Source of the DNA: Flavobacteriales bacterium UBA4466 | GTDB lineage: Bacteria; Bacteroidota; Bacteroidia; Flavobacteriales_D; Sanyastnellaceae | DNA length: 64,000 nt | Reading direction: 5' to 3' | NCBI GenBank assembly: GCA_905182895.1 | Contig: CAJJDD010000004.1 | Span: 1-64,000 of the forward strand | In this document: positions 1,204-13,416 of the stretch, in pieces | How positions within the stretch are numbered: the stretch's first letter is position 1 | How the letters are laid out: each line of letters opens with the position of its first letter | Notes under the pieces: model-generated | Database searches by the model: none | The model's input: the letters and a program-made list of their open reading frames with translations, nothing else | What the model was told of the DNA's origin: nothing | Translations under genes and position numbers: made by a program

Positions 1204-2811
1204 ATGAAAAACAAACTATTATCGGTTTTGTTAGCACTTTGCTGTGTGACAGGATTCTCTCAACTGGACGGTATATACGTCGAGTCCCACCCATTGTCCG
1301 GTAGTATAGGAGCTACAGATTTTAATGGATTCTCAAGCTATAGAATATATGCTCAATTAGAAAACTCTACTGACAGACTATTAACAGTCATAGGTTCAGA
1401 ATCTTGTCCTTTAGATATTAGCACGACTGGACTATTTTACAAAAACTTCGCTGCTTCTGTTAATACTGGTAATGGAATATCTTCATTCATTATTCCTTTT
1501 CTTCCTGAATTAGAATTCTCAAGTTTTGTAACTATAGGAAATGTGACTGATGCGGCAGCAGGAATCCCCAGAATTGAAGACCCTTCGGGTAGCGTGCCGT
1601 TAACCGGTGGATCCACAAGTATATTGAATGGTTCTGCCGATCCACTAGATGTCTGGGAACCTACTTTTAACGCTGGTGGAAATATTAGTATCAATGGATT
1701 TAACGGAAGTAGTTGGTACACTTTACCGGGAGCACCAAATGCGCTTGGAAAAGGTGTCAATAATTCTGTTTGTCTTGGACAATTTACAACTCAGGGAACT
1801 TTTTCTTTTAACATTAATTTAGGTGTTTTCCCTGAAGGCGAAGGGGAAATACCTTATACTAATTGTAGCTCTCCTGGTCTTGGACTAACCTATCCAGTTC
1901 TGGATATAGAAGGATGTACAGATGAAAATGCATGTAATTATGACCCTTTCGCTACTATAGAAAATGATTCTTGCTCGGAGAATGATAACTGTGGAGAATG
2001 CGGAGGTGATGATTCTTCTTGCACTGGTTGCACGGAACTAACCGCTTGTAATTATGATTCTCAAAACACAATTCCTGCTCCAGAAACCTGTGATTTCGAA
2101 ACCTGCTATGGCTGTACAAATCCAGATGCATGTAACTATAACGATACCGCAACTTTAGAAGATAATTCTTGTGTTTTATTAAACGCTGGGTTTATTAGCC
2201 TTTCAGGGGCTACTAACACATACTGTGTAGGTGACGGAGTTCCTGATGAACTGTCCGTGTCAAGTGCCTTCTTCGAAGGACCTAATCACCTTTATATTTT
2301 GACTAGCTCAGATGGAACGGTACTCCTTTCTCAAGAAAGTAATCTGATTAATTTCGAACCTCTTCAAGCTGGAGTCTGTTTAATTACTAGGTATACATTT
2401 GATAATAATGCCGATCTAACAGGATTAAACACTTCTACTTTTTCAGGATGTTTTGAACAGACTAGTTCTATTTCGATAACTAAGAACCAAGGAGGTTGTT
2501 CAGATTCAGAAGCAGCTAATTTCCAGTCTGGTGTTACTTGTAGTGATGATCAGTCTACGTGTATTTATAGTGTTCTAGGTTGTACCGATGAAAATGCATG
2601 TAATTATGACCCTTTTGCCGATGAAGATGATAACACTTGTCTTCAATTAGATGCTTGTGGTAACTGCGGCGGAACAGAAACTGCAGGATGTCTAGATTCA
2701 AATGCCTGTAATTACGACCCTACTGCTACTTGTGATCCTAATGAAGATTGTCTAGAACTTGACGTTTGTGGTGATTGTGGTGGAAGTCGGTATCGCGGGT
2801 TGTACAGATGA
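1204..2811 (+). CDS. Giant repeat protein, N-terminal segment (signal peptide, unique domain, divergent repeats)
   Basis: This is the first uninterrupted stretch of the giant gene (535 codons). Residues 1-20 form a signal peptide ending TGFSQ. Residues 20-235 form a unique domain with no motif I recognise. From about residue 237 there are divergent units: GCTDENACNYDPFATIENDS, then GCTELTACNYDSQ, GCTNPDACNYNDTA, and later GCTDENACNYDPFADEDDN and GCLDSNACNYDPTATCDP. The frame is lost at 2783-2791, where GGAAGTCGG stands for a Ser-Gly pair written AGT GGT in some units and AGC GGT in others. The apparent end RYRGLYR is therefore a frameshift product, and the protein continues into array A. Confidence 0.75.
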   Translation: MKNKLLSVLLALCCVTGFSQLDGIYVESHPLSGSIGATDFNGFSSYRIYAQLENSTDRLLTVIGSESCPLDISTTGLFYKNFAASVNTGNGISSFIIPFLPELEFSSFVTIGNVTDAAAGIPRIEDPSGSVPLTGGSTSILNGSADPLDVWEPTFNAGGNISINGFNGSSWYTLPGAPNALGKGVNNSVCLGQFTTQGTFSFNINLGVFPEGEGEIPYTNCSSPGLGLTYPVLDIEGCTDENACNYDPFATIENDSCSENDNCGECGGDDSSCTGCTELTACNYDSQNTIPAPETCDFETCYGCTNPDACNYNDTATLEDNSCVLLNAGFISLSGATNTYCVGDGVPDELSVSSAFFEGPNHLYILTSSDGTVLLSQESNLINFEPLQAGVCLITRYTFDNNADLTGLNTSTFSGCFEQTSSISITKNQGGCSDSEAANFQSGVTCSDDQSTCIYSVLGCTDENACNYDPFADEDDNTCLQLDACGNCGGTETAGCLDSNACNYDPTATCDPNEDCLELDVCGDCGGSRYRGLYR

Positions 2812-5800
2812 TACAGCTTGTAACTTTGATCCTGCAGCTACTTGTAATCCTGATAATGCCTGTCTAGAACTTGACGTTGTGGTGATTGTGGTGGTAGTCG
2901 GTATCGCGGGTTGTACAGATGATACGGCTTGTAACTTTGATCCTGCAGCTACTTGTAATCCTGATAATGCCTGTCTAGAACTTGACGTTTGTGGTGATTG
3001 TGGTGGTAGCGGTATCGCGGGTTGTACCGATGATACGGCTTGTAACTTTGATCCTGCAGCTACTTGTAATCCTGATAATGCCTGTCTAGAACTTGACGTT
3101 GTGGTGATTGTGGTGGTAGCGGTATCGCGGGTTGTACCGATGATACGGCTTGTAACTTTGATCCTGCAGCTACTTGTAATCCTGATAATGCCTGTCTAGA
3201 ACTTGACGTTGTGGTGATTGTGGTGGTAGCGGTATCGCGGGTTGTACAGATGATACGGCTTGTAACTTTGATCCTGCAGCTACTTGTAATCCTGATAATG
3301 CCTGTCTAGAACTTGACGTTTGTGGTGATTGTGGTGGTAGTGGTATCGCGGGTTGTACAGATGATACAGCTTGTAACTTTGATCCTGCAGCTACTTGTAA
3401 TCCTGATAATGCCTGTCTAGAACTTGACAGTTGTGGTGATTGTGGTGGTAGCGGTATCGCGGGTTGTACCGATGATACGGCTTGTAACTTTGATCCTGCA
3501 GCTACTTGTAATCCTGATAATGCCTGTCTAGAACTTGACAGTTGTGGTGATTGTGGTGGTAGTGGTATCGCGGGTTGTACAGATGATACAGCTTGTAACT
3601 TTGATCCTGCAGCTACTTGTAATCCTGATAATGCCTGTCTAGAACTTGACGTTTGTGGTGATTGTGGTGGTAGTGGTATCGCTGGTTGTACCGATGATAC
3701 GGCTTGTAACTTTGATCCTGCAGCTACTTGTAATCCTGATAATGACTGTCTAGAACTTGACGTTTGTGGTGATTGTGGTGGTAGTGGTATCGCTGGTTGT
3801 ACAGATGATACAGCTTGTAACTTTGATCCTGCAGCTACTTGTAATCCTGATAATGCCTGTCTAGAACTTGACGTTTGTGGTGATTGTGGTGGTAGTCGGT
3901 ATCGCGGGTTGTACCGATGATACGGCTTGTAACTTTGATCCTAATGCTACTTGTGATCCTGATAATGCCTGTCTAGAACTTGACAGTTGTGGTGATTGTG
4001 GTGGTAGCGGTATCGCGGGTTGTACCGATGATACGGCTTGTAACTTTGATCCTGCAGCTACTTGTAATCCTGATAATGCCTGTCTAGAACTTGACGTTGT
4101 GGTGATTGTGGTGGTAGTGGTATCGCTGGTTGTACAGATGATACAGCTTGTAACTTTGATCCTGCAGCTACTTGTAATCCTGATAATGCCTGTCTAGAAC
4201 TTGACGTTGTGGTGATTGTGGTGGTAGTGGTATCGCTGGTTGTACCGATGATACGGCTTGTAACTTCGATCCTAATGCGACTTGTGATCCTGATAATGCC
4301 TGTCTAGAACTTGACGTTGTGGAGATTGTGGTGGAAGTGGTATCGCTGGTTGTACAGATGATACAGCTTGTAACTTCGATCCTAATGCGACTTGTGATCC
4401 TGATAATGCCTGTCTAGAACTTGACGTTTGTGGTGATTGTGGTGGAAGTGGTATCGCTGGTTGTACAGATGATACGGCTTGTAACTTTGATCCTGCAGCT
4501 ACTTGTAATCCTGATAATGCCTGTCTAGAACTTGACGTTGTGGTGATTGTGGTGGTAGTCGGTATCGCGGGTTGTACAGATGATACGGCTTGTAACTTTG
4601 ATCCTGCAGCTACTTGTAATCCTGATAATGCCTGTCTAGAACTTGACAGTTGTGGTGATTGTGGTGGTATCGGTATCGCGGGTTGTACCGATGATACGGC
4701 TTGTAACTTTGATCCTGAATGCTACTTGTAATCCTGATAATGCCTGTCTAGAACTTGACGTTGTGGTGATTGTGGTGGAAGTCGGTATCGCGGGTTGTAC
4801 CGATGATACGGCTTGTAACTTTGATCCTGCAGCTACTTGTAATCCTGATAATGCCTGTCTAGAACTTGACAGTTGTGGTGATTGTGGTGGTAGTCGGTAT
4901 CGCGGGTTGTACCGATGATACGGCTTGTAACTTCGATCCTGCAGCTACTTGTGATCCTGATAATGCTTGTCTAGAACTTGACAGTTGTGGTGATTGTGGT
5001 GGTATCGGTATCGCTGGTTGTACCGATGATACGGCTTGTAACTTCGATCCTGCAGCTACTTGTAATCCTGATAATGCCTGTCTAGAACTTGACGTTTGTG
5101 GTGATTGTGGTGGAAGTGGTATCGCTGGTTGTACAGATGATACAGCTTGTAACTTCGACTCCTAATGCGACTTGTGATCCTGATAATGCCTGTCTAGAAC
5201 TTGACAGTTGTGGTGATTGTGGTGGTAGTGGTATCGCTGGTTGTACAGATGATACGGCTTGTAACTTCAATCCTAATGCGACTTGTGATCCTGATAATGC
5301 TTGTCTAGAACTTGACAGTTGTGATGATTGTGATGTCAATGATAATGTTCTTTGTACTTTTAGTTATACTACTGCTAACTTCCCTTCCAATCTAAATATC
5401 TCTAATGGTGAGGTATTATGCATAACCAGTGATGTCACTGCAACAGTAGGTTCCATAAATGTTTTTGCTGGTGGAATGATTAAAATTTCTGACAATTCAA
5501 CTTTTACAGTTCAAGGAGCTTTAAATGTAGTTCCTAACGGAAGAATCAATTTAGAGGGCTGCAACTCTGATATTTTTATTGATGGCAACTACTCTGGCGG
5601 TAGCTTTAACGACTGTGACATATACAGATACTGTGAAGAGTGCAGCAATGAGAGCATTAATTCTGGTGTTCCTGTTGACTTAGGTTACTTTGTAACTACG
5701 GCTGCTGCTTCATGGGTTGATGTTTGTTGTTGTGATGGCTTTGAAACTGCTGGCTGTACGGATTCTGAAGCTTGTAATTTCGACCCAACTGCAACACTTG

Positions 5801-8800
5801 ATGATGGCTCTTGTCTAGAACTTGACGCTTGTGGTGACTTGTGGTGGAAGCGGCTACTCGTAGGTTGTACGGATTCTTCTGCTTGTAACTACGACTCTAC
5901 TGCATCTTGTAATGACGGTTCTTGTTTGACTGAAGACTGTGAAGGTACTTGTGGTGGAACGGCTACTGAAGGTTGTACGGATTCTTCTGCTTGTAACTAC
6001 GACTCTACTGCATCTTGTAATGACGGTTCTTGTTTGACTGAAGACTGTGAAGGTACTTGTGGTGGAACGGCTACTCTAGGTTGTACGGATTCTTCTGCTT
6101 GTAACTACGACTCTACTGCATCTTGTAATGACGGTTCTTGTTTGACTGAAGACTGTGAAGGTACTTGTGGTGGAACGGCTACTGTAGGTTGTACGGATTC
6201 TTCTGCTTGTAACTACGACTCTACTGCATCTTGTAATGACGGTTCTTGTTTGACTGAAGACTGTGAAGGTACTTGTGGTGGAACGGCTACTGTAGGTTGT
6301 ACGGATTCTTCTGCTTGTAACTACGACTCTACTGCATCTTGTAATGACGGTTCTTGTTTGACTGAAGACTGTGAAGGTACTTGTGGTGGAACGGCTACTG
6401 TAGGTTGTACGGATTCTTCTGCTTGTAACTACGACTCTACTGCATCTTGTAATGACGGTTCTTGTTTGACTGAAGACTGTGAAGGTACTTGTGGTGGAAC
6501 GGCTACTGTAGGTTGTACGGATTCTTCTGCTTGTAACTACGACTCTACTGCATCTTGTAATGACGGTTCTTGTTTGACTGAAGACTGTGAAGGTACTTGT
6601 GGTGGAACGGCTACTGTAGGTTGTACGGATTCTTCTGCTTGTAACTACGACTCTACTGCATCTTGTAATGACGGTTCTTGTTTGACTGAAGACTGTGAAG
6701 GTACTTGTGGTGGAACGGCTACTGTAGGTTGTACGGATTCTTCTGCTTGTAACTACGACTCTACTGCATCTTGTAATGACGGTTCTTGTTTGACTGAAGA
6801 CTGTGAAGGTACTTGTGGTGGAACGGCTACTGTAGGTTGTACGGATTCTTCTGCTTGTAACTACGACTCTACTGCATCTTGTAATGACGGTTCTTGTTTG
6901 ACTGAAGACTGTGAAGGTACTTGTGGTGGAACGGCTACTGTAGGTTGTACGGATTCTTCTGCTTGTAACTACGACTCTACTGCATCTTGTAATGACGGTT
7001 CTTGTTTGACTGAAGACTGTGAAGGTACTTGTGGTGGAACGGCTACTGTAGGTTGTACGGATTCTTCTGCTTGTAACTACGACTCTACTGCATCTTGTAA
7101 TGACGGTTCTTGTTTGACTGAAGACTGTGAAGGTACTTGTGGTGGAACGGCTACTGTAGGTTGTACGGATTCTTCTGCTTGTAACTACGACTCTACTGCA
7201 TCTTGTAATGACGGTTCTTGTTTGACTGAAGACTGTGAAGGTACTTGTGGTGGAACGGCTACTGTAGGTTGTACGGATTCTTCTGCTTGTAATTACGACT
7301 CTACTGCATCTTGTAATGACGGTTCTTGTTTGACTGAAGACTGTGAAGGTACTTGTGGTGGAACGGCTACTGTAGGTTGTACGGATTCTTCTGCTTGTAA
7401 TTACGACTCTACTGCATCTTGTAATGACGGTTCTTGTTTGACTGAAGACTGTGAAGGTACTTGTGGTGGAACGGCTACTGTAGGTTGTACGGATTCTTCT
7501 GCTTGTAATTACGACTCTACTGCATCTTGTAATGACGGTTCTTGTTTGACTGAAGACTGTGAAGGTACTTGTGGTGGAACGGCTACTGTAGGTTGTACGG
7601 ATTCTTCTGCTTGTAACTACGACTCTACTGCATCTTGTAATGACGGTTCTTGTTTGACTGAAGACTGTGAAGGTACTTGTGGTGGAACGGCTACTGTAGG
7701 TTGTACGGATTCTTCTGCTTGTAATTACGACTCTACTGCATCTTGTAATGACGGTTCTTGTTTGACTGAAGACTGTGAAGGTACTTGTGGTGGAACGGCT
7801 ACTGTAGGTTGTACGGATTCTTCTGCTTGTAATTACGACTCTACTGCATCTTGTAATGACGGTTCTTGTTTGACTGAAGACTGTGAAGGTACTTGTGGTG
7901 GAACGGCTACTGAAGGTTGTACGGATTCTTCTGCTTGTAATTACGACTCTACTGCATCTTGTAATGACGGTTCTTGTTTGACTGAAGACTGTGAAGGTAC
8001 TTGTGGTGGAACGGCTACTGTAGGTTGTACGGATTCTTCTGCTTGTAATTACGACTCTACTGCATCTTGTAATGACGGTTCTTGTTTGACTGAAGACTGT
8101 GAAGGTACTTGTGGTGGAACGGCTACTGAAGGTTGTACGGATTCTTCTGCTTGTAATTACGACTCTACTGCATCTTGTAATGACGGTTCTTGTTTGACTG
8201 AAGACTGTGAAGGTACTTGTGGTGGAACGGCTACTGAAGGTTGTACGGATTCTTCTGCTTGTAATTACGACTCTACTGCATCTTGTAATGACGGTTCTTG
8301 TTTGACTGAAGACTGTGAAGGTACTTGTGGTGGAACGGCTACTGAAGGTTGTACGGATTCTTCTGCTTGTAATTACGACTCTACTGCATCTTGTAATGAC
8401 GGTTCTTGTTTGACTGAAGACTGTGAAGGTACTTGTGGTGGAACGGCTACTGAAGGTTGTACGGATTCTTCTGCTTGTAACTACGACTCTACTGCATCTT
8501 GTAATGACGGTTCTTGTTTGACTGAAGACTGTGAAGGTACTTGTGGTGGAACGGCTACTGAAGGTTGTACGGATTCTTCTGCTTGTAATTACGACTCTAC
8601 TGCATCTTGTAATGACGGTTCTTGTTTGACTGAAGACTGTGAAGGTACTTGTGGTGGAACGGCTACTGAAGGTTGTACGGATTCTTCTGCTTGTAATTAC
8701 GACTCTACTGCATCTTGTAATGACGGTTCTTGTTTGACTGAAGACTGTGAAGGTACTTGTGGTGGAACGGCTACTGAAGGTTGTACGGATTCTTCTGCTT

Positions 8801-11681
8801 GTAATTACGACTCTACTGCATCTTGTAATGACGGTTCTTGTTTGACTGAAGACTGTGAAGGTACTTGTGGTGGAACGGCTACTGAAGGTTGTACGGATTC
8901 TTCTGCTTGTAATTACGACTCTACTGCATCTTGTAATGACGGTTCTTGTTTGACTGAAGACTGTGAAGGTACTTGTGGTGGAACGGCTACTGAAGGTTGT
9001 ACGGATTCTTCTGCTTGTAATTACGACTCTACTGCATCTTGTAATGACGGTTCTTGTTTGACTGAAGACTGTGAAGGTACTTGTGGTGGAACGGCTACTG
9101 AAGGTTGTACGGATTCTTCTGCTTGTAATTACGACTCTACTGCATCTTGTAATGACGGTTCTTGTTTGACTGAAGACTGTGAAGGTACTTGTGGTGGAAC
9201 GGCTACTGAAGGTTGTACGGATTCTTCTGCTTGTAACTACGACTCTACTGCATCTTGTAATGACGGTTCTTGTTTGACTGAAGACTGTGAAGGTACTTGT
9301 GGTGGAACGGCTACTGAAGGTTGTACGGATTCTTCTGCTTGTAATTACGACTCTACTGCATCTTGTAATGACGGTTCTTGTTTGACTGAAGACTGTGAAG
9401 GTACTTGTGGTGGAACGGCTACTGAAGGTTGTACGGATTCTTCTGCTTGTAACTACGACTCTACTGCATCTTGTAATGACGGTTCTTGTTTGACTGAAGA
9501 CTGTGAAGGTACTTGTGGTGGAACGGCTACTGAAGGTTGTACGGATTCTTCTGCTTGTAACTACGACTCTACTGCATCTTGTAATGACGGTTCTTGTTTG
9601 ACTGAAGACTGTGAAGGTACTTGTGGTGGAACGGCTACTGAAGGTTGTACGGATTCTTCTGCTTGTAATTACGACTCTACTGCATCTTGTAATGACGGTT
9701 CTTGTTTGACTGAAGACTGTGAAGGTACTTGTGGTGGAACGGCTACTGTAGGTTGTACGGATTCTTCTGCTTGTAACTACGACTCTACTGCATCTTGTAA
9801 TGACGGTTCTTGTTTGACTGAAGACTGTGAATGTAACAGTGGAAGTAATTATCAATGCATAGATGATATTCCAGCAGGAGATGCTAGTGATATAGTTATT
9901 ATTGAAACTTGTGGAACCCCATCTATTACATGGACAGAAACAAATACTGGTTCTGGATGTTCGTCAGATCCTTACAGTCTTACCAGAACATTTACTATTG
10001 TAGACGAAAGCGGAACAGCTACGTGTGATATAGTAAATACGGCTGAAGATACAGAAGCCCCAGTAATGACTCTGCCCGATGACATCTCTGCTGAAATTAC
10101 ATGTGCAGAAAAAACACTAGACTTATCGGATGCTGTTGAAGATACAAATGAGGAAGCTGCTGCTAAAATAGTATCAAAGAAGAGTTATTCAGCTTATTAA
10201 ATATTGTACCTATTAATGTAACAGATAATTGTGACGATGACGTGCAGTATGTCGCTAATAACTTAGTTCCAATTGTACATGATGGATGCGTTGATTACGA
10301 AGGATCTACTAATGTGAGGTACAGTATCATTTGTTATTTCTCAGCTACAGATGATTGCGGAAATGAAGCAGAAGAAGTCTTCACTGTATTAAACATCGTA
10401 GATAATACTGCTCCAGTAACACCAGAAGCACCAGAAGAAGAAAATGTTCAGTGTGCATCTGAGGTATCTGCCCCTATTGAATTAACTGCTCTCGATGATT
10501 GTCAAGGACCTATTACCGTGAGCCCATCGGAAGTTATAACTCCTGGAGAGTGTGACAATCAATTTACAATGGTAAGAACTTGGACTTTTATTGATGCTTG
10601 TGGAAATGATTCTAGTGTTTCACAAACTATTAATGTAATTGATGAAACTGCTCCAATACTCTCTGGATTACCGGATTCTGAGTTAACTCTCAACTGTCAA
10701 GACGAACATCCTGAATTACCATTGGTAATTGCTGATGACAACTGTGACCTCAATGTTCAGGTAGAATTTACAGAAGTCTATACTGGATTCCAACCTGACC
10801 CAGAGGCTTACGAAACCTGCGAGGGAATTCAGCCTCTAAATGCATCTGCCGACTGGTCTATGGCTTTATTCGGGCTTCCGGGACATGACGATGAAGAAGC
10901 GTACTATAACACGATTTTCTCTCAAGTCTCATTTTATGATGACAACGGAAATGGGTTAGAGGCATTATTAACTGGTACAGTATACGACCAATCAAATCCA
11001 AATGGAGGATGGCACATGTACATTCCTCTTACCGCAGGAATGGGCTGGGACGCCTGGTCTGCTATTGAAGGAAACTCTTATAAAGATGACTTCAATTTGG
11101 CTGGGAATGCATACCTCGATTGGACTTACTACTTAGTTAATTCGGAGGGTGCCTATGTAGAAGGATGGGGAGATTTAGAAGGGTCTTATTTAGACATTTC
11201 GCATACTCCTATCGACAACTCTATAGGATGGCAGCATGGTGTAGGAGCTAATAATGTAGGTCCGCACTTCGGTTTAGGAGGTTGGATGGCTTTTGAGGGT
11301 TTCTATCAAAACACTTCTTTAGAAATAGCTGAAGATGTACAAGGTGCTGGTGATGTAGCTATAGACTTGAACTGCTGTCCTACGTACTTATTCACTAGAA
11401 TATGGACCGCTATAGATTGTGTAGGAAATGAGTCATCATTCTCTCAAGAGATCACTGTTTTGGGAACAGATGCTCAAGCGGCATTGTTTTGTTTAGCAGA
11501 TTTCAACTTTGATGGTTACAGAACAACTAATGATCTTGCGATTCTATTAATTGATTATGGATGCTTTTCAGGAGACTGTGCATGTGACTTAACCGGTGAC
11601 GGCTTCACATCATCTGCAGATCTTGGAATATTTTTAGCACTGTACGGAATCCCATGTGAAAATGCTGATTCTGAAGATTAA
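1204..11681 (+). CDS. Giant secreted six-cysteine-repeat protein (whole gene, reconstructed)
   Basis: This is one gene of about 3,490 codons, broken in the raw sequence by several one-base indels. It begins with a signal peptide (MKNKLLSVLLALCCVTGFSQ). Then come: a unique domain of about 230 residues; divergent CTDxxACNYD units (about 1912-2795) interrupted by a second unique segment; array A (2798-5338, about 23 units of 37 residues); a short unique segment (5339-5750); array B (5863-9830, 37 units of 36 residues); Ig/HYR-like segments; and a dockerin-like EF-hand pair at the C-terminus. Every repeat has six cysteines, which suggests disulphide-knotted modules on an extracellular stalk. The CTDxxAxNYDxxA motif recurs in secreted proteins of marine Bacteroidota, with no established function that I know of. 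I infer a cell-surface or adhesive role. A strong terminator follows at 11705. Confidence 0.75.
2798..5338 (+). repeat. Tandem array A: about 23 units of 111 bp encoding a 37-residue six-Cys repeat
   Basis: Units start at the GGT of GGTTGTAC (2798, 2909, 3020, 3130, 3240, 3351 ... 5239). The nominal period is 111 bp. The span from first to last unit start is 2441 bases against 2442 for 22 exact periods, so the many one-base gains and losses almost cancel. The unit reads GCTDDTACNFDPAATC, then NPDNACLELD, then VCGDCGGSGIA. Cysteine spacing is C-x5-C-x7-C-x5-C-x5-C-x2-C-x7. Variation is confined to a few spots: GTT/AGT (Val/Ser) before CGDCGG, GCAGCT/AATGCT (AA/NA), and AAT/GAT. The frame breaks eight times at GACGTTGTGG, where neighbouring units have GACGTTTGTGG or GACAGTTGTGG. 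The unit count may be wrong if copies were merged in assembly. Confidence 0.9.
5089..10200 (+). CDS. Giant repeat protein, middle segment carrying array B
   Basis: This is the longest open stretch of the giant gene (1703 codons). The correct frame is entered at about 5160, after the break at GACTCCT (GAC/GAT superposed). It holds the last two array A units, a unique segment (5339-5750) rich in beta-strand-like sequence (NGEVLCITSDVTATVGSINV), and one divergent unit. A possible further break lies at 5836-5840, where LWWKRLL replaces the expected CGGSAT. Thirty-seven array B units follow, then an Ig/HYR-like start (TEDTEAPVMTLPDDISAEI). The stop at 10198 is a frameshift product. In the other frame the sequence continues LLNIVPINVTDNCDDDVQ into the next segment. 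The methionine at 5089 is not a real start. Confidence 0.65.
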   Translation: MTFVVIVVEVVSLVVQMIQLVTSTPNATCDPDNACLELDSCGDCGGSGIAGCTDDTACNFNPNATCDPDNACLELDSCDDCDVNDNVLCTFSYTTANFPSNLNISNGEVLCITSDVTATVGSINVFAGGMIKISDNSTFTVQGALNVVPNGRINLEGCNSDIFIDGNYSGGSFNDCDIYRYCEECSNESINSGVPVDLGYFVTTAAASWVDVCCCDGFETAGCTDSEACNFDPTATLDDGSCLELDACGDLWWKRLLVGCTDSSACNYDSTASCNDGSCLTEDCEGTCGGTATEGCTDSSACNYDSTASCNDGSCLTEDCEGTCGGTATLGCTDSSACNYDSTASCNDGSCLTEDCEGTCGGTATVGCTDSSACNYDSTASCNDGSCLTEDCEGTCGGTATVGCTDSSACNYDSTASCNDGSCLTEDCEGTCGGTATVGCTDSSACNYDSTASCNDGSCLTEDCEGTCGGTATVGCTDSSACNYDSTASCNDGSCLTEDCEGTCGGTATVGCTDSSACNYDSTASCNDGSCLTEDCEGTCGGTATVGCTDSSACNYDSTASCNDGSCLTEDCEGTCGGTATVGCTDSSACNYDSTASCNDGSCLTEDCEGTCGGTATVGCTDSSACNYDSTASCNDGSCLTEDCEGTCGGTATVGCTDSSACNYDSTASCNDGSCLTEDCEGTCGGTATVGCTDSSACNYDSTASCNDGSCLTEDCEGTCGGTATVGCTDSSACNYDSTASCNDGSCLTEDCEGTCGGTATVGCTDSSACNYDSTASCNDGSCLTEDCEGTCGGTATVGCTDSSACNYDSTASCNDGSCLTEDCEGTCGGTATVGCTDSSACNYDSTASCNDGSCLTEDCEGTCGGTATVGCTDSSACNYDSTASCNDGSCLTEDCEGTCGGTATVGCTDSSACNYDSTASCNDGSCLTEDCEGTCGGTATEGCTDSSACNYDSTASCNDGSCLTEDCEGTCGGTATVGCTDSSACNYDSTASCNDGSCLTEDCEGTCGGTATEGCTDSSACNYDSTASCNDGSCLTEDCEGTCGGTATEGCTDSSACNYDSTASCNDGSCLTEDCEGTCGGTATEGCTDSSACNYDSTASCNDGSCLTEDCEGTCGGTATEGCTDSSACNYDSTASCNDGSCLTEDCEGTCGGTATEGCTDSSACNYDSTASCNDGSCLTEDCEGTCGGTATEGCTDSSACNYDSTASCNDGSCLTEDCEGTCGGTATEGCTDSSACNYDSTASCNDGSCLTEDCEGTCGGTATEGCTDSSACNYDSTASCNDGSCLTEDCEGTCGGTATEGCTDSSACNYDSTASCNDGSCLTEDCEGTCGGTATEGCTDSSACNYDSTASCNDGSCLTEDCEGTCGGTATEGCTDSSACNYDSTASCNDGSCLTEDCEGTCGGTATEGCTDSSACNYDSTASCNDGSCLTEDCEGTCGGTATEGCTDSSACNYDSTASCNDGSCLTEDCEGTCGGTATEGCTDSSACNYDSTASCNDGSCLTEDCEGTCGGTATEGCTDSSACNYDSTASCNDGSCLTEDCEGTCGGTATVGCTDSSACNYDSTASCNDGSCLTEDCECNSGSNYQCIDDIPAGDASDIVIIETCGTPSITWTETNTGSGCSSDPYSLTRTFTIVDESGTATCDIVNTAEDTEAPVMTLPDDISAEITCAEKTLDLSDAVEDTNEEAAAKIVSKKSYSAY
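5863..9830 (+). repeat. Tandem array B: 37 units of exactly 108 bp encoding a 36-residue six-Cys repeat
   Basis: Unit starts run 5863, 5971, 6079 ... 9751. The distance 3888 equals 36 x 108 with no indel at all; the 37th unit is cut short at ECNSGS. The unit reads GCTDSSACNYDSTASC, then NDGSCLTEDCEGTCGGTATV. Cysteine spacing is C-x5-C-x7-C-x4-C-x4-C-x3-C-x7. Units are almost identical at the DNA level. Two sites vary. The codon before GC is GTA in units 4-19, 21 and 37 and GAA in units 2, 20 and 22-36, with CTA before unit 3. The Asn codon is AAC in units 1-13, 17, 25, 32, 34, 35 and 37 and AAT in the others. The clustering shows recent expansion by unequal exchange or slippage. Confidence 0.97.
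10242..11681 (+). CDS. Giant repeat protein, C-terminal segment (HYR/Ig-like and dockerin-like)
   Basis: This is the 479-codon tail of the giant gene, in a different frame from the preceding piece because of an indel before 10198. The true frame can be followed back to about 10165, so the methionine at 10242 is not a real start. It contains Ig/HYR-type segments (SATDDCGNEAEEVFTVLNIV and WTFIDACGNDSSVSQTINVI), a unique domain (about 10800-11340), and another short beta segment (TAIDCVGNESSFSQEITVL). It ends with two EF-hand-like dockerin motifs, ADFNFDGYRTTNDLAILLIDYG and CDLTGDGFTSSADLGIFLAL. No typical T9SS sorting domain is visible, so the dockerin-like pair may be the anchoring or targeting element. 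Confidence 0.75.
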   Translation: MQYVANNLVPIVHDGCVDYEGSTNVRYSIICYFSATDDCGNEAEEVFTVLNIVDNTAPVTPEAPEEENVQCASEVSAPIELTALDDCQGPITVSPSEVITPGECDNQFTMVRTWTFIDACGNDSSVSQTINVIDETAPILSGLPDSELTLNCQDEHPELPLVIADDNCDLNVQVEFTEVYTGFQPDPEAYETCEGIQPLNASADWSMALFGLPGHDDEEAYYNTIFSQVSFYDDNGNGLEALLTGTVYDQSNPNGGWHMYIPLTAGMGWDAWSAIEGNSYKDDFNLAGNAYLDWTYYLVNSEGAYVEGWGDLEGSYLDISHTPIDNSIGWQHGVGANNVGPHFGLGGWMAFEGFYQNTSLEIAEDVQGAGDVAIDLNCCPTYLFTRIWTAIDCVGNESSFSQEITVLGTDAQAALFCLADFNFDGYRTTNDLAILLIDYGCFSGDCACDLTGDGFTSSADLGIFLALYGIPCENADSED

Positions 11682-11813: not shown

Positions 11814-13264
11814 ATGAAAAGATTAATCAGCTTCACAGCAGCAGCATTCATTGGAGGGCTTTTTGCCTTAATGGCTTCTACCTATTTCTTATCCGATTCA
11901 GAATTAATTTCTTATGGAGATCGAGGTAATACAGCGGCTTCCAATTTCAACTATGTAAGTCACCCCTCTTCTAGCATTATGCCTGTAAGTGATTTCACCA
12001 TGGCAGCCAGTAAAACTGTAAATGGTGTAGTTCACGTAAAGACAGAGATAGAAGTACAAAACGCATATAATCCTTGGGCTGATTTCTTTGGCGATGGATC
12101 GGGTATAGAGCCTTATGTACAAAAAGGTTCTGGTTCCGGAGTAATAATCTCAGATGATGGTTATAGTTATTACTAATAACCATGTAATCGAAGGGGCTGA
12201 CAATATCGAGGTAAGTATGAATGACAACCGTTCATATAGCGCAGAACTAATAGGGACAGACCCTACCACCGACATAGCTGTGTTAAAAATAGAAGGCTCT
12301 CATTTTCCTTCTCTTAAAATAGGCGATAGTGAGGCAGTAAAAATCGGTGAGTGGGTATTAGCCGTAGGAAACCCCTTTGATTTAACCTCTACAGTTACCG
12401 CTGGAATAGTAAGTGCTAAAGGAAGAAATATTAATCTATTAAGTTCAGACCCAGGAAGAGAAATCTTCCCTATAGAATCATTTATTCAAACAGACGCTGC
12501 AGTGAATCCTGGCAATAGCGGTGGTGCTTTAGTTAACACCAATGGAGAATTAATTGGAATAAATACGGCTATTGCTTCTAGAACTGGTTCGTTTTCTGGG
12601 TATAGTTTTGCCGTACCAAGCTCTATAGCATCTAAAGTAGCCGAAGACTTAATAAAATATGGTCAAGCCACAAAGGGCTTATATAGGTGTTAGAATAAGG
12701 CCTGTAACGGAAACGTTGGCAAATGATTATAATTTACCGAACGTAAAAGGAATTCACGTCAACTCCCTTACTGAAAATGGAGCGGCTTATGATGCAGGAA
12801 TAAAATCTGGTGACGTTATACTTCAAATTAATTCTAAAGATTTAGTCTGTTCCTCAACTGCAAGAGCAGATAAGTAAATATAGACCTGGTGACAATGTAA
12901 CCGTGACGGTTTGGAGAGGAGGCATTGAAAAGAAGATTTTGGTGGAATTACGAGATAATGACGGAGGTACTAGTCTTAAGTCTTCTGACAAGTCAGAAAT
13001 AAAAGAAATTTTAGGCGCTCAGTTTTCCAATGTTTCTGATGAAACTAAAACTAAACTTGGAATAACTGGAGGAGCCCAAATTAAAGAATTGCAACGCGGA
13101 AAAATTATATACAAATAAAAAAAGGATTTATAGTTTCGAAAGACGGTAATGACATTAATAGCTCTGCCGATTTAGAAAACCTCTTGGAGAACAGAAGTGG
13201 AGGAATTCTTCTTGAAGGTGTCTATGAAAATGGAACCAAAGCCTATTACGGATTTGGTTTGTAA
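11814..13264 (+). CDS. HtrA/Deg-family periplasmic serine protease (frameshifted)
   Basis: This trypsin-like Deg protease works in envelope protein quality control. An N-terminal membrane anchor or signal (MKRLISFTAAAFIGGLFAL) is followed by the protease domain, then PDZ1 (YIGVRIRPVTETLANDYNL) and PDZ2 (from LGAQFSNVS). The catalytic triad is visible: His at 12181-12183 (TNNHVIEGA), Asp at 12271-12273 (TTDIAVLK) and Ser at 12517-12519 (NPGNSGGAL). The frame breaks near 12165, 12676, 12842 and 13110. At 12676 GGCTT superposes GGC/GGT plus T, and at 12842 TTAG superposes TTA/TTG, so the gene is probably intact in the cell. The reconstructed length, about 483 codons, is normal. A terminator follows. 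Confidence 0.85.
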
Positions 13265-13285
13265 AACCCCACAAAATATTTTCAT

Positions 13286-13317
13286 AAAGCCGTTTTCCTA
13301 GAGAACGGCTTTTTTTA
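13286..13317 (+). terminator. Rho-independent terminator after the HtrA-like gene
   Basis: The stem AAGCCGTT (13287-13294) pairs with AACGGCTT (13304-13311), followed by a run of T. Confidence 0.85.
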
Positions 13318-13348
13318 TTTCTTCGAGAATGAATTCGCTAATTCAAGT

Positions 13349-13356
13349 TAAATTTG
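13349..13356 (+). promoter_or_regulatory. Possible -7 promoter element of gap
   Basis: TAAATTTG matches the Bacteroidota TAnnTTTG -7 consensus, 61 bases before the gap start codon. No clear TTG -33 element was found at the usual distance. Confidence 0.35.
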
Positions 13357-13416
13357 CACTATAGGACTTTCAATGAAAAAGTCGGAATATTTTAATAATT
13401 ATAACCAACATTCAAA

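Follow-up and report, generated by a model that had tools for sequence, protein, structure and literature searches.

The CTDs of the T9SS have been divided in reviews into types A, B and C (PMC10202324, PMC12618676), and a word search of the text of these two reviews returned no instance of dockerin. T9SS CTDs (PF18962/TIGR04183, TIGR04131 and the ChiA type) are strictly C-terminal and are carried by dozens of Sec-exported, multidomain surface proteins in a Bacteroidota genome. In these respects they resemble the C-terminal tail of the giant protein considered here, which is encoded near one end of a 64,000-nucleotide stretch of DNA (the window) from Flavobacteriales bacterium UBA4466 (the source genome). 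They differ from it in structure, since T9SS CTDs are Ig-like sandwiches or type B or C sequences whereas the tail has a predicted dockerin fold of 27-60 residues. The dockerins of types I and II resemble the tail in sequence profile and predicted fold, and the tail of the window protein has two calcium-type loop-helix repeats. However, classical dockerins have two repeats whereas many relatives of the tail have only one, the tails always occupy the last residues of their proteins, the window tail falls below the Pfam Dockerin_1 cut-off and the source genome has no cohesin match.

The long repeat arrays that precede the tail have their closest described relative in an animal protein. The linker of MPEG1/perforin-2 (PDB 6u2j, 6u2k and 6sb3) has been described as a small folded element postulated to be EGF-like (PMC7593815) and as a truncated EGF-like hinge (PMC6989145). 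It shares with the repeated unit, here termed the bead, a 22-residue core, GCTDxxxxNFxxxAxxDDGSC. In MPEG1 this core occurs once, between pore-forming domains, and has two core cysteines, whereas the window protein has 60 copies with extra cysteine pairs and is without a MACPF domain. Ig-like domains of the HYR_4C family (PF23237) are also present beside the arrays but make up only one part of the protein.

We consider it somewhat probable that the window protein is a secreted, disulfide-beaded surface stalk whose sorting or anchoring depends on a C-terminal signal with a dockerin fold; the route, calcium binding, receptor and stalk function are all putative. An earlier sequence-only reading of the window had taken such a structure to be undescribed in function. 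This agrees with the absence of a corresponding family from the libraries searched and with the open-access literature searched, which yielded no account of the protein and in which neither the bead nor the use of a dockerin tail as a signal was described.

Organisation and integrity of the gene

The + strand from 1204 to 11681 forms a single gene of about 3,490 codons, which together specify about 429 cysteines, beyond the more than 350 that had been claimed. The product consists, in order, of a signal peptide, an N-terminal domain, the A units, the B units, HYR-like domains, a 230-residue domain and the dockerin-like tail. The N-terminal sequence MKNKLLSVLLALCCVTGFSQ (1204-1263) reads by eye as a Sec-type signal peptide, as had been proposed. 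The N-terminal domain that follows (1264-1911) is also found in paralogues and relatives and, like the C-terminal 230-residue domain, gave no match in Pfam or in PDB profile searches. Divergent single units with an inserted non-repeat stretch, recognised by core count (1912-2796), lead into array A (2798-5349), in which a 111 bp unit with the spacing C-x5-C-x7-C-x5-C-x5-C-x2-C is repeated 23 times. Between the arrays lie a non-repeat domain (5353-5748), whose sequence pattern resembles the N-terminus of the paralogue in L044, and one divergent unit (5749-5862) with an indel near 5840. Array B (5863-9849) consists of 37 units of 108 bp with the spacing C-x5-C-x7-C-x4-C-x4-C-x3-C. It is followed by an HYR/Ig-like stretch (9850-10418) whose frame is broken once, between about 10170 and 10240, by the HYR_4C domain (10419-10637; Pfam, E=1.5e-16), by the 230-residue domain (10773-11489), which is found in several copies per genome in 46 of the 61 sampled genomes of the source organism's family, and by the two repeats of the tail (11490-11657), which ends 7 residues before the stop codon. 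The neighbouring genes on the same strand, a 2OG-Fe(II) oxygenase upstream (127-1089) and an HtrA/DegP-type protease downstream (11814-13400; family named by reading the sequence), served as markers of synteny.

As assembled the gene is not one open frame, its longest open pieces being 1204-2811, 5089-10200 and 10242-11681. Array A contains 15 single-base indels across its 23 units and these are confined to four sites, each at or beside a column that differs among unit variants (GACAGTT and GACGTTT appear as GACGTT, AGT and AGC as AGTC, and GCAGCT and AATGCT as GAATGCT). In array B, where the variants differ by isolated substitutions, there are no indels inside the 37 units. Because all of the array A indels fall where unit variants differ, as the merging of variants would give, this strong pattern suggests that the frame breaks are assembly artefacts produced by consensus merging. 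The assembly is indel-prone beyond the arrays, as the HtrA gene is likewise frameshifted, and the exact unit numbers rest on this one assembly. The many breaks in array A, with the further one near 10200, might instead be real and mark a decaying pseudogene. This is highly improbable and was rejected given the coincidence of the indels with sites of unit-variant difference and an intact frame in a congener, G447, which is clean across the C-terminal 680 codons, including the stretch broken in the window; the breakage of a neighbouring housekeeping-type gene (HtrA) in the same assembly also argues against it.

In G447 the gene is divided between two contigs. Contig C35 carries the upstream oxygenase and then the N-terminal part of the gene (75% identical over the N-terminal region), and ends at the start of the array. 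Contig C6 begins within B-type units and stays open in a single frame across the HYR-like domains and the C-terminal domain as far as the tail, the C-terminal domain being 97% identical to that of the window; HtrA and then GAPDH lie beyond. Both gene ends and the gene order, with the oxygenase before and HtrA and GAPDH after, are thus conserved between the window and G447, and the claim of one gene of 10.5 kb is confirmed despite the broken frame. The physical linkage of A to B units is seen in the window alone because the array is unassembled in G447.

The bead and its cysteines

Unit starts run from 2798 to 5239 in array A (n=23) and from 5863 to 9751 in array B (n=37), and Tandem Repeats Finder reported 111 bp x 23.5 and 108 bp x 37.0. 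The earlier count of about 60 six-cysteine modules is therefore borne out by the 23 A and 37 B units, and by core count the two spacings are exactly those claimed; about 7 more single cores lie outside both arrays. The core of the bead is GCTDxxACNYDxxAxxDDGSC.

Evidence for the pairing of the cysteines came from 1,251 distinct cores, in which related sequences were left unweighted. C16 was accompanied by C8 in 272 of 289 cases (odds ratio 11, p=2e-35). When C8 and C16 were both present or both absent the number of linker cysteines was even in 369 cores and odd in 64, and when C8 was present alone it was odd in 238 and even in 106 (parity contrast p=6e-56, again unweighted for relatedness). 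The dependence of C16 on C8 and the linker parity are both expected if all cysteines pair within units, and these sequence statistics support three intra-unit disulfides in each A and B bead. From conservation and covariation we infer that a C2-C21 bridge closes the core. A single-sequence AlphaFold model of five B units was too low in confidence to use (pLDDT 41), and with a pTM of 0.39 the predicted structure does not fix the geometry from bead to bead.

The arrays may have arisen as an evolutionary by-product, tandem copies of a widespread linker module that were expanded by slippage and whose length has no special function. The near-identity of the B units (6 variants among 37) would fit recent expansion, and array length varies widely between relatives. 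However, every B unit has kept its frame and all six cysteines, the parity rule is common to the whole bead family and long arrays are also present in near-complete genomes (31 cores in L117), so that we regard an origin of this kind as quite improbable and retain the reading of the arrays as a stalk.

No family in Pfam, NCBIfam or PHROG covers the bead core, and Pfam scans of the window protein and its relatives gave no match to an EGF model. Matches in relatives to mucin C8-3, ADAMTS_CR_3 and DUF4468 in Pfam were set aside as short coincidences of cysteine pattern rather than homology, PHROG matches of 16-17 residues were not accepted as family membership, and literature searches with the letters of the motif returned chance matches only. 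A profile of 49 cores from the source genome, however, matched residues 331-352 of MPEG1/perforin-2 (E=2.4e-6). The predicted structure of the bead superimposed on MPEG1 6u2k at 0.6 A over 24 columns, a match that is non-significant alone (E=5.5). By its profile match the core of the bead is a relative of the animal MPEG1 linker termed 'EGF-like'. The bead would then connect, at the level of structure, surface proteins of bacteria and proteins of marine phages with the hinge of a pore-former of animal immunity, a module whose origin and fold have so far been only loosely termed EGF-like.

The dockerin-like tail

The EF-hand pair of dockerin type proposed in the sequence-only reading corresponds to two dockerin-type loop-helix repeats at the C-terminus of the window protein. 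No match to Pfam Dockerin_1 above the gathering score was obtained for 10242-11681, and this model matched 4 of 30 relatives (best E=0.0014). The tail profile A4 detected dockerins in the PDB with greater significance (2y3n_B, 7.6e-13; CelS, 1.1e-6). An AlphaFold model of the C-terminus of a paralogue in the source genome (L045) was of high confidence (pLDDT 87), and its top Foldseek match was again the dockerin 2y3n_B (probability 1.00, 1.0 A over 52 columns, target TM 0.79, E=0.012). By profile and by the predicted fold of the paralogue, the tail is a true dockerin homologue. A single recognisable repeat was present in 60 of 108 relatives.

Among tail ORFs in the retrieved loci 101 of 108 tails ended within 7 residues of the stop codon, most of them at exactly one. 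As these loci had been selected by the bead, the count was repeated in 20 tail-selected stretches of a near-complete genome, M30B41, where 43 of 43 tails ended within 7 residues of the stop. The tail is a strictly C-terminal element.

Within the sample of the order the tail was found in all but one genome of the source organism's family, often in 40-90 copies and in many genomes in at least 56, and in other families of the order it was found 0-3 times per genome. Because it is strictly C-terminal on dozens of proteins per genome in the family, the tail seems to be a signal of general use in sorting or anchoring and not a part of the window protein alone. The possible calcium-binding anchor of the earlier reading is upheld in so far as the tail is a dockerin homologue, but it is not peculiar to this protein.

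The tail occurs alongside conventional T9SS signals: M30B41 has 136 type A tails in addition to 91 matches to the dockerin-like tail, and the source genome has 55 type A tail matches. In two further genomes with beads there were 57 and 33 type A tails and zero dockerin-like tails. The type A motif was found on none of 101 dockerin-tail ORFs, neither PF18962 nor TIGR04183 matched the C-terminus of the window protein (10242-11681), and the Pfam and NCBIfam T9SS models gave no match to the dockerin-like tail. An M36 peptidase close to the NCBIfam family 'T9SS-dependent M36' (794 bits) ends in bead units and the tail, which we take as a probable case of signal swap. A search for SprA_N gave no match in the source genome (63% complete), but this search matched nowhere at all.

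The main rival to a sorting signal is that the tail is an ordinary dockerin, which would dock in a calcium-dependent manner on cohesin-like domains of surface proteins in a non-cellulosomal scaffold. This would account directly for its dockerin sequence and predicted fold. Cohesin matches are present in 9 of 61 genomes of the family, five of them above the cut-off, and one locus (L224:433-2403) encodes a protein in which several cohesin-like domains are combined with a two-repeat tail at its own C-terminus; next to it lies a protein that has both dockerin-like repeats and a type A tail. Against this, the Pfam cohesin model (PF00963) had no match in the source genome (63% complete) or in three sampled congeners, searches that could overlook divergent cohesins, nor in G023, G012 and G047, each with at least 56 tails. 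The single repeat of many tails also argues against docking on cohesins, as does the fixed position of the tail at the last residues where docking modules elsewhere may sit internally. We therefore think cohesin docking unlikely, although a serious competitor to the sorting signal that we prefer, and the absence of cohesins from tail-rich genomes led us not to adopt a cellulosome.

A proposed model for export and anchoring

If the tail is a sorting or anchoring signal, the protein would enter the periplasm by means of its Sec signal peptide, and there or outside the cell the bead disulfides would form. Each unit of about 36 residues would fold into a bead with three disulfides (C2-C21, C8-C16 and a linker pair, CxxC or CxxxC), and sixty beads in two arrays are predicted to make a long protease-resistant rod or chain that would hold the N-terminal domain at a distance from the C-terminal domain and the HYR-like domains before it. 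The outer membrane may be crossed through the T9SS or by a parallel route. The calcium-type tail would act as a C-terminal sorting or anchoring signal in parallel to the type A CTD of the T9SS, and would fix the protein to the outer surface through a putative receptor and presumed calcium binding. The adhesive fibre and the protective filament suggested earlier are possible functions for such a stalk.

A bolder proposal, which we put forward tentatively and hold to be plausible but short of probable, is that dozens of proteins per genome in one family of marine Flavobacteriales use the tail as a C-terminal signal of a new class for secretion or anchoring, either as a fourth T9SS type or in a separate surface-attachment route, and that the beads are disulfide-rich building blocks of a new kind for giant surface stalks. 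The tail is a candidate for an address label or cell-surface anchor of a new kind. If it does direct sorting, export could be predicted for dozens of giant surface proteins in marine bacteria that are abundant and uncultured, and a calcium-type switch would explain their fixation to the cell in sea water.

Other bead proteins

Within the source genome the bead unit is present at many other loci on more than 10 contigs, including paralogues that share the C-terminal domain. Elsewhere the core was found in 152 of 295 sampled Bacteroidia genomes, and the bead was found at more than 550 sites in the genome collection, the majority of them in uncultured marine Flavobacteriales. The description of a giant, cysteine-rich, stalk-like exported protein with a calcium-type C-terminal module is supported, but the window protein is not a lone structure.

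The bead is also present on viral contigs with virion-like neighbour genes. On several of these, including L063 and L067, bead cores occur in marine tailed-phage-like proteins, some of them beside baseplate-type genes. On L077 and similar contigs labelled as viral, the product of one gene among phage-like genes combines beads with a type A T9SS tail, and these contigs may be either host sequence or the site of a phage-borne surface protein.

At another locus of the source genome (L054:4325-7459; C4, about 68,324-71,458, - strand) bead cores are combined with PKD domains and a lysyl oxidase domain (PF01186, 2.7e-26). Lysyl oxidases are enzymes of a type that in animals cross-links the extracellular matrix. 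Lysine is absent from the A and B units, which are therefore not obvious substrates for such an enzyme. In M30B41 a run of giant bead genes, each with a terminal tail, lies on one strand within about 95 kb (G001:C2:730000-830000, L167-L171).
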